Shown here: positions 13,938 through 23,576 of the stretch, one piece after another
Position numbering within the stretch: position 1 is the first letter of the stretch
Layout: the number at the start of each line of letters is the position of its first letter
Source of the DNA: Spiroplasma endosymbiont of Cantharis nigra
GTDB lineage: Bacteria; Bacillota_I; Bacilli_A; Mycoplasmatales; Mycoplasmataceae
Length of the DNA: 64,000 bases
NCBI RefSeq assembly: GCF_964019925.1
Contig: NZ_OZ026470.1
Coordinates: 868,001-932,000 of the forward strand
Direction of reading: 5' to 3'
The notes under the pieces: generated by a model
Databases searched by the model: none
Seen by the model: the letters and a program-made list of their open reading frames with translations, nothing else
Told to the model about the DNA's origin: nothing
Translations under genes and position numbers: made by a program

Positions 13938-14534
13938 CTATCTTATTTTAAAGTTAAACTCTCCATTTTCATTATCAAATATAACACCATCTCCATTCAT
14001 TGAAAGTCTATCATTATAGATTTGAATCTCAACTTCTGAATGTGGTTGTTCAAAATAATCACAATTTTTATATCTATCTGTTATTTTTATTACTCTTTGA
14101 TTTTTACTACCAATAAGTCTTCTATTTTTATCTAAAAGTTTCATAATAAATGGTCCATCAATTAAAATATCTATATTTTTTAAAATATCATTATGTTCTT
14201 CTAACATTTGTTCATAAATATATCCTGTAAAGCAAATTACTGATAAATTATTTTTTTGACTTCAAATAACAAGTTCCTTTAAACCATCCGGTTGTAAAAA
14301 AGGTTCCCCACCAATTAGAGTGATACCTTCAATATTAAATAAAGTCTTTGCCTCTAAGATTTTCTCATAAATAAACTCATTTGGCATAAACATCTTTTTT
14401 TCTAAACCTAATAATTCCTGATTCGAACATCCATTACATCCTATAGTGCAACCTTGAAATCAAATAACAAACCTAATTCCTGGTCCTTCAATTTCACTAT
14501 TCATAAGAAATTTTCCAATATTTAAATTAGCCAT
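13938..14534 (-). CDS. NrdG-like radical SAM protein (198 aa)
   Basis: A small radical S-adenosylmethionine enzyme with one 4Fe-4S cluster: Cys29, Cys33 and Cys36 form CTIGCNGC (CX3CX2C), and LIGGEPFLQ is the SAM-binding GGEP motif. Length and order of motifs match the activases of glycyl-radical enzymes, chiefly NrdG of the anaerobic ribonucleotide reductase. No glycyl-radical partner is in the window; instead the gene overlaps the AAA+ gene by 8 bases (ATG at 14532-14534, AAA+ stop at 14527-14529), so the two are translationally coupled and probably act together. The C-terminal 60 residues form a short beta-rich tail (EVEIQIYNDRLSMNGDGV). I infer that it modifies or activates a component of the cluster rather than a reductase. 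Confidence 0.85.
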
Positions 14535-16338
14535 TAATATTAAATATTATTTTTCCTTCATTTGTTGAAGTTAAAATTTTAGTTCCAGTTCTTATGTTTT
14601 TTAAATTCTGAAATATAAATTCTGAAAGTGGATCTACTAAATTAGTTTCAAGAGAATTTAAAACATCTCTTCCACCTCTTCTTTCATCAGCATTTTTTAA
14701 TATAATTTCAATTAAAGTTCTATCAGTTAAATCAATATGCAGTTCAGCTTTATACTTTTCATAAATTGCAATTTGAATTGGTTTTACTTTTTGACGTATT
14801 ATTTTTGCCTTTAAATTTAAATCCTTTATAAAATTGAAAGGAACTATATTATTTCCAAATCTACCTAAAAGCTCAGGTCTATTTAATTCATTTGTAAAAT
14901 GATTTTGAACTTTTTTTATAAATTGATTATGAACTTCGCTTGCACTTTGATTGGGATCAACTTCTGCTGCTCCAATATTTGAAGTAAATATTATAAACGA
15001 CTCACTAAAACTAACTGTTTGGCCAGTATTATCCGTTAATCTCCCATCTTCAAGAATTTGTAAAAATTTATCAAATATTTTGGGGCTTGCCTTTTCGATC
15101 TCATCAAATAAAATTACACTAAATGGCTTTTCTTTTACTGAATTTGTTAATTGTCCTCCACCCTCAAAACCTACATATCCAGGAGGTGCTCCAATTAATT
15201 TCTGATCTGCATTTTCTTGTCCATACTCTGACATATCAAACCTAATAAGGTTTGCCTCATCATTAAATAAAAAAGTTGTAATAGCTTTTGCAAGTTCTGT
15301 TTTTCCAGTTCCTGTTGGACCTACAAAAAATAAAGTTCCCTTTGGTTTACTTCTTTTTGAAGAAAAAGTTATTCCAGTAAGTCCAGTATAGGCCTTATAA
15401 ATTACTTTTGCTACTTTTGCAACAGCCTCATCTTGTCCAATAACTTTTGAAGAAAGTTCTTGTTTTATAGTCAACATTTTTTCATAACTTAATTCTTCTC
15501 ATGGTGAAGTCTTTTCTCCATAATTATATATATTAAACATTTTATTAAAAGTAAGTGGTGTTGCAAAATTACAGCTAAACTTTGCAAAATGAGATAATTC
15601 TTTAAGTGTTCAACCTTCTGTTGCATCAACTATATTTTCAAACTCAGTTGATATATCTGTAACTTGAATTCTTAATTTAATTGTAGATAAAAATTGCTTT
15701 CTTTCAGCTCTACTTGGTTTTGGTAATGTTGAAATAATAATTTCAGGATTATCTAAGTATAAACTAGGTGGTAATTGATTTATTTTCTTAGTTAAAAAAA
15801 CAATACAATTTGTTAGTTCATCAATCCTTGAAATTGAGAATTTAGATTCTTTTAATGTCTTTGAAAATTCTGTTAAAATAGCTCTATCATCAACATCTAA
15901 TCCTTGGTCACTAAAAACAAAATTAGTATAATCTGCTACAAAACCAATTTTTCTTTCATCTTCTCTATTAATATTTTTATTTAAAAGAGTAAAGAAATCA
16001 ATTGGTTTTTTTAGAACTAAATGATCTTTAAAATCACTTTTATCAATATCACCACTAAATAGCTCATCGAACTCATTACCAATAAATTCTGCGCTACTTA
16101 ATTTACTTGAAGAACTAGTTATTAGACTAGTTATTTTTTTTCCTTTTAGGCCAGAATTTTGGTCAAAAATAAATTTATCAGAGTATTTTTTTTGATCAAA
16201 AATACTAAAAATTATATCGTGGATGTTTACATATTTACCCTCGAATTCATAAATATCATCTATATTACCCTCAATTATAATTGCCTTTTTAATACCTATT
16301 AAATTTTTTAATTGGTTTAATTCTCTATTTACACTCAT
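14527..16338 (-). CDS. AAA+ ATPase: degenerate N-terminal domain plus ClpB-like AAA domain (603 aa)
   Basis: Residues 1 to about 270 resemble the non-catalytic N-terminal domain found in some paired AAA proteins (AIIIEGNIDDIYEF, then FIFDQNSGLKGKK); there is no Walker A there. The second domain is a complete ClpA/B-type (AAA_2) module: Walker A GPTGTGKT (340-347), DMSEYG and GAPPGYVGFEGGG (pore-loop region), Walker B ILFDEIEKASP (about 408-417), sensor 1 FIIFTSNIG, arginine-finger region NRPELLGRF, and the D2 small domain ending DERRGGRDVLNSLE. It should form a hexameric ring that threads or remodels proteins. The ATG at 16338 follows the stop of the coiled-coil gene at 16347 and it overlaps the radical SAM gene downstream. 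It is not ClpB itself: it lacks the N and middle domains. Confidence 0.85.
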
Positions 16339-16346
16339 AAATTCAC

Positions 16347-17438
16347 CTACTTACTTGAGTTATTATTTTTTTTGTTATTTATATTTTGCTTGTTTTTAGC
16401 AATATATTTTGGTTCTCTATACTGCTTATTAAATTCTTTACTTGAATGTAAGTTAAATTCTTTAAGCCTATTTAAAAAAGCCTGAGCATCAGCATCATGC
16501 TCATGACCTTCAAATCCCTCTCAATTATAAACAAAACTTCCATCTAATTTTACAACAAAGTCTGCTGTTTCACCAGTCAGTTTTTCACCATGAATAAGGA
16601 TTAGATTTTTTTCTTCTATTTTTCTTATATTTTCTTCTTTTACTATATAACCAACTTCTCTTATTGACTTAACGATTTTTATTACATTATCTTTTCTAAT
16701 TGCTTCTTGTTCTGCCAATTTTGATGAAATTATAAAATAATCTTTTATATCTTTTTGATAATTTTTTGTTTCTTTTAAAGAAATTAATTTATTAGCCTGA
16801 TCTTTAATAGCAATTAATACATCCGAATCCTCTTTATATAATTGAATTGAATTTTCAACTATTTCCTTACTCATTACTCTGTTAGAAGTTTTAAACTGCT
16901 TTAGTTCTTCAGTTATCAAATTAATTATTTCTTCAGGTTTTTTATTAATTATTATATGCTGATTTTTTTCAAACATTTCTTTAATGTAAATCTTATCTTT
17001 TTCATTTTTATATTTACTAATTAATTCATTTTTAAAATTTATTAGATCCTTAAAATTATCTTTAGTAAATACTTTTAAAATATTTTCTTGTTCTTTTATT
17101 AATACATCTCTTTTTAAACTAACCACCTGAGCTTTAAATTCAGCTATCGTATCACGTTTTCTCTCTGCATATCTTTGAATCTCATGATAAGTTTCAATTG
17201 CAACATGCGTATTTGTAGAAAGTTCTCTTTCATAAGTATTTCTTGCTAAATCCTTTTCTTCTTTTCTTAATTCTTCTAACAATTTTTCAATTTCTTTTTT
17301 ATAGAATCCTGAATTATCAATTTGTTCACAATGTGATATTAATTCAATAATATATTCGATTAATACATCAATATCTTTTTTGATAAATGAAAACTGTTTT
17401 TCACAATTAATTAAAATTTCTTCAGCTGACATACTCAT
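16347..17438 (-). CDS. Coiled-coil protein of the AAA+/helicase cluster (363 aa)
   Basis: The start ATG 17438 has GGAGG upstream, placed inside the end of the preceding gene; the stop is TAG 16347. Residues 1-260 are almost entirely charged helix with heptad-like repeats (for example KEIEKLLEELRKEEKDLARN and KDNFKDLINFKNELISKYKN). Near residues 285-325 a small beta unit appears, LDGSFVYNWEGFEGHEHDAD, followed by a basic Asn/Lys tail. That unit resembles, from memory, the short DUF2997-type domain found in operons with AAA ATPases, but I could not check this. It lies between the 757-residue protein and the AAA+ protein; the end-to-start spacing is a few bases on each side. It may be a scaffold or an adaptor that feeds the AAA+ ring. 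Confidence 0.75.
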
Positions 17439-17440
17439 GC

Positions 17441-19714
17441 TTATTTTCCTCCAAACATATTAGTATACTTTGATAAATCAGTTTGTGTGTATTTTCTTTC
17501 TTTTCCAAAAATAATATTTAAAGCCTTTTTATAATAGTTATCATTATTTTTTAAAATCTTATCTACAATTTCAGGCCTATTTAAAACATTTTTAACTCAT
17601 ATTAATTTTAACTCAATTGGCATATTATATATTTTTTTATCTATAAATTCGTTTATATCATTTTCTATTTTATTTATATAATTTCCAGCCATAATTTTAA
17701 CTTTATAATCTATTATCTCTTCTGTTTTCTGAAGAAACTGTTCACTTTTATATTTGTAATAATATCTATAAAAATCTGTTAATGAGTCAGATAAGTTTAA
17801 AAGATACTGATCAAAATTTTCAATATCTAATGAGTTACCAACCAACTCTATAATAGAATCCAATAAAAATTTATAATTTTCTTCTACAAATTTATAGTTA
17901 GAAATATATAATTCTTTAGTTATTCTTCCAATGATATTTAAAGTTTGAGCATGTTGAGCTCATACATCAGAGTTATATTTATTATCAACAAACATCTCTG
18001 CTCTATTATTTGTTTTGAAGTATTTTGTTAAGACACCTAAAGAATCTCTAACATTATATTTTCAACCATCAATTGAATTTTTTTCTAAATAACTATTAAT
18101 TCTATAAATATTTTCAATTGTACTTTGCATATTTATTTTGTCAAATATATCCAATATATTTTTTGTATCAATAAATTGATAATTTTCTAATATATCAAAC
18201 AACTCATCATCTGTTCTTTCATTAGATATTTTTATAATTAAATTTTTTGCAACTCTTTCTAATATTAGAGATAATTTTCTATCGGTTTTTTCTGCTAAAT
18301 ATTGCTTCATAGCATTATAATTTTGTCCAAAATCAACTGTCTTAAGTAAAAACTCTTCAAGAATTACAGATACCTTTTCTTCTAAACCAAGACGTTCCAA
18401 AATTAAGTATATATTCATTGATATATCATATTTTTTATTTATAAGTGAGTCTTCAAATTTTTCTAAGACATTATCTATACTAGATATAAATAAATTTGCT
18501 AAATCAAGCGGCTCGGTTGGGTTTTTATATTTATAAATAACAGGAATATTAATATTAATAGAATCAAAAGATTTATTTGCCAATAAAAAACTGTTCGCTA
18601 TATTTTTTGAATCCAAATAAACAAAAGAATTATTTTGAAAAATTTCATTTTCAATATGACCAACATAAAAAATTAGTTTATTATCTATTACACTTATTGT
18701 TTTTGTATTTCTTTTGGAATTATAGAAAATAATTATTTCAATATTTTTTGCTAACTCTTTACTCTTTATAATCTCATCATCTGATTTTATAAATTGATCA
18801 TTTATTAGCATTAAATTATAGCTTGTTTTAATATTTAAATTTGAAAATAAGTCTGGGTTAGACATAAAGTCATTTTTATTTTTTATGTGTAACTCTGGCA
18901 TAAATAATTTTTTTATTTTTTCATCATACTTACTTAAAATACTTTTTAAAATATCTAATGCCATATTAGGATTGAATCTTAAATAGTCATCAAAAAAAAT
19001 ACTTTCAGTTTTAATTTTATAAGTACCATTATCAAATAACTCAATTCAAGCTTCTATTGCTGCTGTATCATTTTGAATATACTTTTCAAAATTACTAACA
19101 TCATTTATTGATTCCTGACCTTCATTTATAACATCCCTTAAAAAAGAGTTATCTCCAAAAATGTCAGGATTTTGGCTTATAAAGTCAGAACATGAATTAT
19201 AAAGTCACTCATTATTTGAAAATTCTTTTTTATCAATTGTTGTGGAAAGTTTGTGAGTAAATTTAACATCTTTTACTCTTTTTTTTCAATTAATTTCTTT
19301 AATAACTTCTTTATTCTTATAAACAGGATCTATATAAAATTTTATATCTTGAAATTTATTATCTTGAGATATTGTATAAGTTCCCTTTTTAAACTCTTCT
19401 TTTAATTTTAAATCAATTGAAAAATTATTAATTGGTGTATTCATATTTAATAGTCCCACGCCAACTTTATTTTGACCAATTTCTATTACCTTAAAATTTA
19501 TTAACTCTCTTAAAGCTCTCTCAAAAAGAATTTTATTTTTAATATTAAAATCTTCTTCCAAAATATCATTAATATTTTTATTTTTATTGGGATGTTCTAT
19601 TATAATTAATAAAATTAAAAATTCCATAAATGTAGGTTTTCTTATTTCAGAATACTTTATTTTTAATGGTATATAAAATTTTTCATATTGAATTTCAATT
19701 TTATTAAATATCAT
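17441..19714 (-). CDS. Unknown 757-aa protein of the AAA+/helicase cluster
   Basis: One frame runs from ATG 19714 (GGAGG upstream) to TAA 17441, crossing several TGA-Trp codons. The first 90 residues (KPTFMEFLILLIIIEHP...KILFERALRELINFKVIEIGQ) look like a winged-helix-type helical domain with a short beta hairpin. A central region (about 250-400) is mixed alpha/beta (NIEIIIFYNSKRNTKTISVIDNKL), and the last 350 residues are helical and charged, ending KYTNMFGGK. There is no signal peptide, membrane segment or catalytic motif that I recognise. Starts and stops are tightly packed: the helicase stop lies 4 bases upstream of its start, and its own stop codon lies in the spacer between the next gene's ribosome binding site and start. 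It is a core member of the cluster, possibly the sensor or target-recognition part. Confidence 0.75.
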
Positions 19715-19718
19715 ATCT

Positions 19719-22700
19719 CTATTCCTCCATTATTTCATTGGGTTTAAGTAAACAACCTTCAAAGTCAAGTTTTGATATTATATCAGCATAAACTTGATAA
19801 CTATTTGAAACACTTGGGTCATCAATAGTTGGTATCTTAACAGTTATATCATTAACTGCTCTTTGAGCTCCTATTATTATTAATAATTCTCTTGCTCTTG
19901 AAAAAGCTACATTTATTCTTTCATATTTTTTTAAAAAGTCTCTTCCAGATTTAGTTGATAATTTTTCTGGATTTCTTACTAAGTTTACTAAAACATAATC
20001 TGCTTCTTTTCCTTGAAAATCATCAACTGTATTAATTACTATATTGATATTTTTAAAGTTAGCAATATTGATCTCTCTTTTTAGTTTATTTACATGTAGT
20101 CCATAAAAACTAATTACAGCAACACTTGGTTTTAATTTTTGTTTTTTTTCTAAAACTGCTTTATCAATTTTAATTAACAATTGCTTGGTTAATTTTATTT
20201 CTAAATCATTAAATAAACTAGTTGAAAAATCTTCAGTTTGTTCATAACTAATTTCATTTTTTGCATTATATGTAGAATCAACTCAATAAGAAGAATTCCT
20301 TGAGTTAATTATTTCTTTATTAAAATGATTAATAATTTTTAAGTCATGTCTTTTTTGTTCGCTTACTTGTGACTCAACTTTTAGCTGACCATCATAAAAT
20401 TTATTTACAATTTCCATAATCTGCTCATGACTTCTATATTGAGTTTTAAGAATAGTAGTTATATTTTTATTTTTTGCAGATATAAGTTTCTTAAATGCGG
20501 AATCATCTAATAATTCATACATTAAATTATAATTGTAATCTTTATTAAAATGTTTATTAACATCTTCAACATCATTTGGTTGTAATTTTAATATTGGTGG
20601 TAATTGTCTGTAATCACCTACTAATATTAAAGCTTTACCATAGATTAAAGGCATTAAGATTTCCAATATAGTAGCCTTTGAAGCCTCGTCAATTATAACT
20701 ACATCAACATCCATGTTTCTTAAATTTAATTCCTCCAACCCTAATTTATTGGCAAAATTATCTTTTGTAAATTTAAATAAATTTGTAGATGTTAGTGTCA
20801 TTGAATATACGTTAACTAAGTTATCCAAAATAGTTTTTATGTATTTTTGACTATCTTTAAAAGTTTGGCCTGTAAAATTCTTTGATGCAAGTTCTTCCTC
20901 AAAATTATTTGTTATTTTATAATTGTCATTTAAATATTTTATTATTGAAGAGTACATTTGCGAAAAGTTTTCCTTTCTTACTCTACCATGTTTCAATTTT
21001 TTCTCTAAATTTTTTAATTCCGATTTTACTTGCTCTTCTAAATCAATATCAGTTAGACCAAGGTCTAATGAAAATTTATCATTAACTACTTTTATTAATT
21101 CTCTAAGTTCCCTAGCACTTGAACCAGCATTTTCAGCTAGATTATTTTTTGTAACTATCAATTGATTTTTTTCAATTTCAAATTTATCTAAATCAAAATC
21201 TGAAAATACTTCATTCTCTTTATTTTGTAATCTTAATTCTATTTCTACTTTTAAATTTCTTAGACTAACTAAAAAAGATTCAAATATTTTATTTAATTCA
21301 TTAACTTTAATATCAGTTCTTAAAATTTGCTCCAGACCTTCAATTCTGCTTTCTTCTTTTTCAGCTAAATCAAAATCAGCATTTCTTTTGTACTTGTTTA
21401 AAATTAATTTTGATTTTTTAATCTCTAAAAAAGATTCATTTTTATAATAAACTTCATTTACAATTTCCTTTATTAATAAGTAAGGGTTTAAAAAATCCTT
21501 TGGATCAAAATTTAAATTTATATAAACAAAATTATTTAATTCAAATTTAATTGAGTTTTCATAACAATTAATTATTTTTTCACCAACATTAATTAAGGCA
21601 TCAAATTCTTTTGTCCCTATAGTTTCAATTAAATTTATTACATTTATTAATTCCTCTTTTAATAAATTTTTTGATCTAACCTTCTCCAGATTTTTTTCTT
21701 TAAAGGCTGTTATTTGATTATTTAAATCATCTATTTTTTCTTGAATACTTCTAACCTGATTATTATTTTGATAAAAACTTTTATTCGCGTTTATTAATCT
21801 TTCTAATTCACTTTTATAATTATTAAACTCATTTATTAAATTTTCATCATTGTTCATATCATCAAAAGCTCTTTTTCCAATAGCCTTATAGTAATTGTAA
21901 AGAACTCTATCTGGTGAATAACCATTTGAAGATTGTGATTTTATATTTAATTGATTTGTTAATCTTATTTTATTAATATTGGGGTCAATTGGTAATCTAT
22001 CAACAACATTTTTAATGGCTTCATGATTCTGACTTGATATAAGAACCTTTCTGTTCATTTTTGCTAATTGAGTTATTATTTCACTAATTACTTGAGTCTT
22101 TCCAGTTCCAGGAGGTCCTTGTAAAAGAAAAATATCTTTTGTATTAACAGCTTTTCTTACCGCATCCTTTTGTTCAGCATTTAAACTAAAATTAAATTCT
22201 GTATCTTCTATTTTAATATCATTTGAAACCTCTGATAATTCTACTAGCTTCGTATTAAATAAATAATTTATTAAATAAGGATTTTTTGTATTTCCCTCTG
22301 AAACTTTTTTTATTACTTGTTTAGATCTTTCGATTAGAACATCTTCACCAATTCCAGTATATGCAATGTATCCTGAACTTAAAGATTCTAAATTACTATT
22401 TGAAAATATTGCCTCATCAAAATCTTGCTCAATTTCAAAGTTTATTTTTTTGACTTTTCATTGTTGCATTTCTTTTGGGTTATTTTTCATTAATATATCA
22501 AACTCATTTTTTTCTCCAAGAAAAATATTTTTGCTATTTTTCATTCAATAATTTGCAAAACTTATTTCTTCCTCTCAAACACCTAGCATATTTGATACTT
22601 GCAATATATTTTTAATTTCATTAATTTTATCCAGATCGAAATCAAAAATTTCATGAATATTTTTAATAAGTTCATGCGTAGTTAAAATATTTTTATTCAT

Positions 22701-23576
22701 TTTTATTGGTACAAGAGATAAGTCTTTTGTTTTTTTAATTCTATTAATTTTTTCTAATTCATCAGTTAAAAGGTCCAAAGTAACTACATAAGAAATTTGA
22801 TATGGAATTCTTTTATTTTTTAAATAAGATTCTGAATTTACTAATAAATATTTATATGCTCTAGTTTTAAATTCTTTAATCTCATATTCGAATAAGTTAG
22901 AGTCAAAATAAATTTTATCTATTCTCATTACCTTTTGATAGTTTAAACCCAAATAAGGTAAAGATTTTTTTCTATCTAGTTTTAATAAATCGTCACTAAA
23001 TTCTAAATAGTTTAGTCATTTATCTTTTTCTTCTTCAAATGTAGATAGTAACTTTCCTATTTCAGAAAGATTAGAAGAATTTAAAACATTTCTTCTAATT
23101 AACTCTTCATCTTTAATTTGACCTTGATTTCTAATTATTAGAATTTGTGATTCTTGTATTATTGTTTCAAATTCTTGAGCTACTGGTTTTAATCTTGTCA
23201 TAAATATAGAACTTATAATAAGAGAAGCATTCATAGTATCAATGTTTACATAAAATCCAAGATAAGTTCCTTCGGGTAAAAGACTTTGATTTTTTGAGTC
23301 CAACTCAATTCTTATAATTCCATTATAAGAAGATTTGTTTTTATCTTTTTTAGAGAACTGTCTAGTTTTGTTGTCCAAAAGACAGATAAAAGATTTTTTA
23401 GCAAGAGAACTTCTCAAAAAGTTTTGAAACTCCACACAAGTGTTTATGCCTCTTATATCTAGTTGCTCTATTATTTGATCTAAGCTAGATGGATTTTCCT
23501 TAAATTGAACATTTTGTAAAAAAGAGAAGTCTAATATTATTTCTTTAACTGAATTATTTTCAATAATATTTGACAT
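19719..23576 (-). CDS. SF1 (UPF1/Dna2-like) helicase with long coiled-coil insertion (1285 aa)
   Basis: Residues 1-460 form an unfamiliar N-terminal region without a nuclease motif that I can see. The helicase core then has motif I LLQGPPGTGKTQVI (Walker A about 487-494), motif II VVIIDEASKATI near 960, motif III LVGDYRQLPPI, TQYRSHEQI (motif IV region), VNTVDDFQGKEADYVLVN (motif V) and NVAFSRARELLIII (motif VI). Between motifs I and II lies an insertion of about 400 residues, largely coiled coil (DDLNNQITAFKEKNLEKVRS, EIELRLQNKENEVF). This is the AAA_11/AAA_12 type of superfamily 1, which moves 5' to 3' on nucleic acid. The start ATG 23576 has GAGGG. It heads the leftward cluster that continues with the 757-aa protein, coiled-coil protein, AAA+ ATPase and radical SAM protein. 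Confidence 0.9.

Follow-up and report, generated by a model that had tools for sequence, protein, structure and literature searches.

Several described systems share parts with the locus reported here. Mokosh consists of the RNA helicase MkoA together with the kinase MkoB, or of the helicase-PLD protein MkoC. The vWA-MoxR/FtsH NTP-dependent conflict systems are built from a vWA protein and a MoxR/FtsH ATPase; as described by Kaur et al. 2020 (PMC7159879), the AAA+ ATPase is joined by variable effectors, among them PIN, SF1 helicase and radical SAM. The occurrence of an SF1 helicase alongside PIN has been noted there as a conflict theme (PMC7159879).

The window analysed here is a stretch of 64,000 nucleotides from the Spiroplasma endosymbiont of Cantharis nigra, the genome of which is 1.24 Mb in one contig, and its open reading frames were read with genetic code 4. 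Five minus-strand reading frames fill positions 23576-13938 in the order HEL-U-CC-AAA-rSAM, and the five genes have the fixed order and orientation by which the HEL-U-CC-AAA-rSAM system is defined. The earlier note, made from this DNA alone, had described five leftward genes separated by gaps or overlaps of a few bases, and its coordinates are exactly reproduced: the spacings from HEL to AAA are 4, 2 and 8 bp, and the AAA and rSAM genes overlap by 8 bp. The ribosome binding sites that it had placed there are seen as purine-rich, Shine-Dalgarno-like runs ahead of each of the five starts, and its view of the genes as one unit agrees with their conservation together in 63 ordered loci. Between the upstream ferritin gene and the operon lies a terminator-like hairpin (23654-23631, minus strand), a weak feature with 2 such hairpins found against 1.2 expected by chance.

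HEL (19719-23576, minus strand) is a protein of 1285 residues, which Pfam and NCBIfam place among the SF1 helicases of the UPF1/IGHMBP2 type. It contains AAA_11 at residues 465-631 and AAA_12 at residues 1023-1238, and it scores 198 bits to TIGR00376, below the cut-off of that model. The helicase motifs GPPGTGKT, DEASKA, QYR and DFQGKE are invariant across the HEL family and intact in the window protein. The large insertion that had been noticed in this helicase is located between motifs Ia and II, and is long and poorly conserved.

The AAA protein (14527-16338, minus strand; 603 residues) is a AAA+ ATPase of the ClpB-D2 type, matching AAA_2 of Pfam with 169 bits. Conserved in the window protein and its relatives are Walker A and Walker B, the pore loop GYVGF, the GRFGNN and RGGRD motifs, and the arginine and sensor-2 residues; Walker A of the C-terminal AAA+ domain is present in 62 of the 63 loci. 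The N-terminal ~285 residues have a Walker A motif in none of the 63 loci and give no Pfam match. Thus the ClpB-like ring proposed in the earlier note stands as a ring of the ClpB-D2 type, while the degenerate first AAA domain that it also proposed is unconfirmed and is a plausible description of this N-terminal part. Identity with the ClpB disaggregase was rejected, as the score to TIGR03346 is 260.5 bits against a cut-off of 1232, D2 alone is matched (residues 285-599), and the first 280 residues are without Walker A.

The radical-SAM protein, rSAM (13938-14534, minus strand; 198 residues), matches Fer4_12 (112 bits) and Radical_SAM (36 bits) of Pfam. Its CX3CX2C and GGEP motifs are found in 63 of 63 loci, the cysteines are invariant and the motifs are intact in the window protein. 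The description of this gene as NrdG-like and overlapping the ATPase gene was accurate, since the best NCBIfam match is NrdG (TIGR02491) with 100.5 bits; this is lower than the cut-off of 126.1. The class III ribonucleotide reductase NrdD is encoded elsewhere in the genome, at ~414-417 kb of contig C1 (L070:6392-9015), with an adjoining NrdG of 166 residues, and no glycyl-radical enzyme was found among the genes of the operon. Because NrdD carries this separate adjacent NrdG, and the score is below cut-off, rSAM was rejected as the reductase activase. Identity with viperin or pVip was likewise rejected, the score of 26 bits against the viperin_w_prok cut-off of 180 reflecting weak superfamily similarity alone. 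In one genome (G212) a frame break (L066:11609-12176) divides the rSAM gene, the operon being otherwise complete. A gene with an RNase III domain follows rSAM immediately at L062:12875-13375, and a reading frame of similar size follows it at L064 12901-13410.

CC (16347-17438, minus strand; 363 residues) has no Pfam or NCBIfam match. Alignments show a helical, variable N-terminus and a C-terminal domain that is strongly conserved across phyla, with the motif LDGsf.Yn.EGfEGhehD in the group of the window and GKF.YkFdgYEGqACxKDI elsewhere.

Scanning of 84,980 species genomes with an alignment of the AAA N-terminus yielded 80 loci. Profiles of all five families reveal the full order in 63 named loci, four plasmids included, from nine phyla: Bacillota, Mycoplasmatota, Campylobacterota, Bacteroidota, Spirochaetota, Planctomycetota, Pseudomonadota, Actinomycetota and that of the archaeon Methanimicrococcus, with the phylum labels taken from record titles, which may be wrong as many of the records are metagenome-assembled genomes. 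The median gaps across these loci are -4, -4, 9 and -17 bp. Most of the remaining loci are cut off at contig ends or represent the variant arrangement described below. A class-wide sample shows the identical five-gene order in other Bacilli. The earlier note had allowed for the genes not being conserved together elsewhere, and what was found is this recurrence in ordered loci. Recurrence of the order across phyla, together with the selection described below, shows that the operon is not a chance neighbourhood. The apparently broken operon of Malacoplasma (L080) was dismissed as arising from translation with code 11, as L198, a contig of equal length, is intact when read with code 4.

Outside the Spiroplasma family the system is patchy, and E. 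coli gave only cross-matches to the Clp family. On the AAA tree the phylum label changes 17 times against a minimum of 8, a mixing which fits horizontal transfer without proving it. Plasmid carriers belong to Photobacterium, Acinetobacter, Moellerella, Polaromonas and Leisingera, and several of the plasmid neighbourhoods include integrases, transposases, TIR, DarT, MazF or ArdA genes.

The U protein of the window (U757; 17441-19714, minus strand; 757 residues) has no Pfam or NCBIfam match. Its relatives have a common body of ~550-600 residues, followed at the C-terminus by HEPN or PIN, two unrelated RNase domains. Among the 63 complete loci HEPN is present in 40, PIN (PIN_4) in 16 and neither in 7, the last being two Spiroplasma, four Treponema and one truncated U. 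The HEPN type occurs in most Bacillota loci and in several others. Its motif R-x2-RN-x3-H is invariant in 24 aligned U proteins, down to 17% identity, and the U protein of L062 matches DUF4145 of Pfam with 24.0 bits (cut-off 23.1). DUF4145 is a HEPN family (PMC3710099). The AlphaFold model of the C-terminal region of the HEPN type is all-helical with a pLDDT of 90; Foldseek returned no significant match for it, HEPN structures having the best probabilities (top 0.54). In the plasmid records gene 2 is annotated as a PIN domain-containing protein, and Pfam places PIN_4 at its C-terminus.

Neither the HEPN motif nor PIN is present in U757 and its relatives in the Spiroplasma family, and Pfam detects no PIN match in U757. 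The window protein is matched to both the HEPN-type and PIN-type U (hhalign, 97.0-97.5%, columns ~6-655 and ~6-573), and in profile-profile comparison the similarity stops before reaching the nucleases, near column 604 for the HEPN type and near column 545 for the PIN type. In the AlphaFold2 model of U757 (pLDDT 89) the N-terminal part is winged-helix-like and beta, and the C-terminal part forms an alpha-solenoid; a Foldseek search with U757 gave only helical-repeat matches, none significant. Since the Spiroplasma-family branch of the unrooted AAA tree clusters with the HEPN-bearing clade, the simplest history of the family would be the loss of HEPN. A second apparent loss of a nuclease lies outside the mollicutes, in four Treponema loci (L121, L125, L127 and L129), where U belongs to the PIN clade yet has no PIN.

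Two further arrangements share components with this system. The genome of the window carries a second cluster of four genes, HEL-U'-CC'-AAA, without rSAM (C1:283050-291561; L193 4050-12561), in which an in-frame stop breaks U', the downstream portion of which sits in the gap before CC'. The same rSAM-less cluster is found in the mycoplasma loci L194, L196, L199 and L200, and decayed copies of it lie in L159 (Mesomycoplasma hyorhinis) and L197. Of these mycoplasma clusters L196 retains the HEPN motif, which is degenerate in the others; one U' still has an RNDISH motif. The C-terminal domain of CC' is homologous to that of CC (97.3%, E 1.6e-11). In the third arrangement, known from Bacilli and Clostridia, rSAM and AAA are accompanied by FHA, PP2C and/or Ser/Thr kinase genes (L067-L069 and the rumen plasmid of Aristaeella, L158), and one such cluster includes an LRR_5 protein; rSAM and ClpB-like AAA genes of L201 are likewise part of a different cluster. 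As both an rSAM-less cousin and an FHA/PP2C/kinase variant exist, AAA is the common hub, CC-U-HEL is one set of outputs, and rSAM is a frequent partner that the core can dispense with.

In the genus of the window organism the operon behaves as a core locus and not as an accessory one. U was found in 19 of 19 other sampled species and AAA in 20 of 20, and the five-gene order is the same at every locus of the genus whose neighbourhood was examined. Distances of all five proteins follow those of LeuS (r 0.90-0.96 over 13 genomes; none of 2000 permutations as high), and the operon is therefore vertically inherited within the genus. All five genes are under purifying selection, with dN/dS of 0.04-0.16 relative to two close relatives, close to the values of LeuS. 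In the wider family, which includes Spiroplasma phoeniceum, the AAA protein is present in 39 of 60 genomes, and in the genus that holds S. phoeniceum (g8) in 13 of 14.

The flanks of the loci contain genes of Abi_2/AbiD, Csx1, type IIG restriction-modification, DISARM and BREX. Regions of matching size, taken as controls from the same genomes, contain 53 PADLOC families and the flanks 54, so there is no enrichment, and the association with defence islands was discarded as support on account of these equal counts. No copy of the system was found in phage records, and one viral contig carries it. A phage-defence role of the operon in this organism is doubtful, because here it is a vertically inherited core locus from which the nuclease domain is gone.

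The complete form, judged from its protein families, would be an RNA-targeting system of the conflict type, probably directed against invaders. This reading draws on the two RNase superfamilies, the UPF1-like helicase, the swappable effectors, the plasmid copies and the spread across phyla; an NTPase, a helicase and an enzyme had already been compared with the make-up of conflict systems, and the exchange of PIN and HEPN, the plasmid copies and the cross-phylum mixing strengthen that comparison. In its usual form the helicase may engage nucleic acid, probably RNA, while U would serve as the scaffold bearing the C-terminal RNase, PIN or HEPN. CC and the ClpB-type threading ring would control assembly or release of the complex, and one of the partners might receive a radical-type modification from the rSAM activase. 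Invasion or stress could then lead to the cutting of RNA, either as defence of the conflict type or as growth arrest. In the lineage of the window, where the RNase is lost, the remainder is probably a vertically inherited device for remodelling or surveillance of ribonucleoproteins, or may act with an RNase supplied in trans; the remodelling role is suggested by the retention and selection of the helicase, AAA and radical-SAM active sites. The loss of the nuclease with everything else kept and under selection speaks for a function that has changed in the Spiroplasma family and is perhaps core there.

We consider it about evenly balanced whether the operon belongs to a five-gene conflict system of the RNase type that has been widely transferred, as its Spiroplasma-family branch, in which the nuclease is lost and the remaining machine repurposed. 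A bolder version is put forward tentatively, that this is an undescribed immunity or stress system of at least nine phyla in which rSAM and a Clp-type unfoldase license a helicase-guided RNase, and which the Spiroplasma family has domesticated as a core function without the killer nuclease. Conflict would play no role if the UPF1-like helicase, PIN or HEPN and AAA+ dismantled stalled or damaged complexes in housekeeping quality control of RNA or ribonucleoproteins, with rSAM maturing one of the parts. The presence in every sampled species of the genus and nearly all of g8, the LeuS-like selection and distances, and the flanks without excess of defence families are all in line with such a role, but the patchiness outside the family, the plasmid copies and the mixing of phyla are not, and housekeeping RNases are not usually swapped or lost; we regard this as rather unlikely, though to be taken seriously. 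The view of the earlier note that the cluster matches no familiar housekeeping pathway holds in that it is neither a ribonucleotide reductase nor a standard repair system, given the separate NrdG of NrdD and the five-gene order in 63 loci.

It is less probable still that AAA and rSAM form the centre of a module for protein modification or stress signalling, with the helicase and nuclease as its clients or outputs. The FHA, PP2C and Ser/Thr kinase genes beside rSAM and AAA in L067-L069 and L158 speak for such a module, whereas the HEL-U-CC-AAA cousin, present without rSAM in mycoplasmas and in the genome of the window, indicates that rSAM is dispensable for the core. That rSAM is an ordinary NrdG serving the class III reductase within a chance cluster we consider next to impossible: NrdG is indeed its best NCBIfam match, but the match is below cut-off, NrdD at C1:414 kb has an NrdG of its own, and loci of nine phyla have the five-gene order. 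The anaerobic ribonucleotide reductase, which the earlier note had named as a known pathway whose finding would speak against its reading, has its own activase in this genome. The Spiroplasma family is a natural experiment, in which the machine is kept minus its nuclease in genomes down to 0.9 Mb. As named isolates and plasmids of Photobacterium, Moellerella, Vibrio and Slackia hold complete copies, the system can be tested directly. We know of no explained chemistry that joins a radical-SAM protein to an AAA+ ring of the protein-threading kind.

Comparison with known systems shows likeness mostly at the level of single proteins. The HEL core matches the MkoA models of PADLOC (314 and 255 bits), which cover UPF1-type helicase domains, but the match is limited to this core, the four other genes are absent from Mokosh, and as Pfam finds no kinase or phospholipase-D domain in the five proteins, membership of Mokosh was rejected. 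The AAA protein resembles DolB of Dodola in being a ClpB-D2-type ring with a pore loop (75 bits to the DolB model); however, it scores higher to ClpB (~260 bits) and lies in a helicase-nuclease operon, and it differs from ClpB and ClpC in having neither the ClpB N-domain nor a first active AAA. Membership of Dodola and of the PADLOC candidates was rejected because the similarity is that of a generic helicase or AAA. The NTP-dependent conflict systems, with their PIN-plus-SF1-helicase and radical-SAM effectors (PMC7159879), come nearest to the operon in concept. The vWA-MoxR/FtsH systems are ternary, while here none of the five proteins has a Pfam match to vWA, which excluded membership, the AAA is of the Clp type and the five-gene order is fixed.

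rSAM is similar to the NrdG/PflA activases in its small size, CX3CX2C, and GGEP and NQR motifs, but it has an extra C-terminal segment, is below the family cut-offs and has no glycyl-radical enzyme in its operon. The same RNase superfamilies stand beside a UPF1-like helicase as in HEPN and PIN toxins and in UPF1-PIN RNA decay, but here the nuclease is a fusion with a large scaffold, and the window lacks it. No model of Pfam, NCBIfam or PADLOC names the five-gene unit, and no description of the operon was found in the open-access literature. Conflict systems made of such parts are known, while the HEL-U-CC-AAA-rSAM combination itself appears to be undescribed. Its gene order is strictly kept in organisms as different as Veillonella, Vibrio, Spiroplasma and an archaeon, yet none of the curated families searched gives it a name, so that it is a strong candidate for a prokaryotic system hitherto unrecognised.
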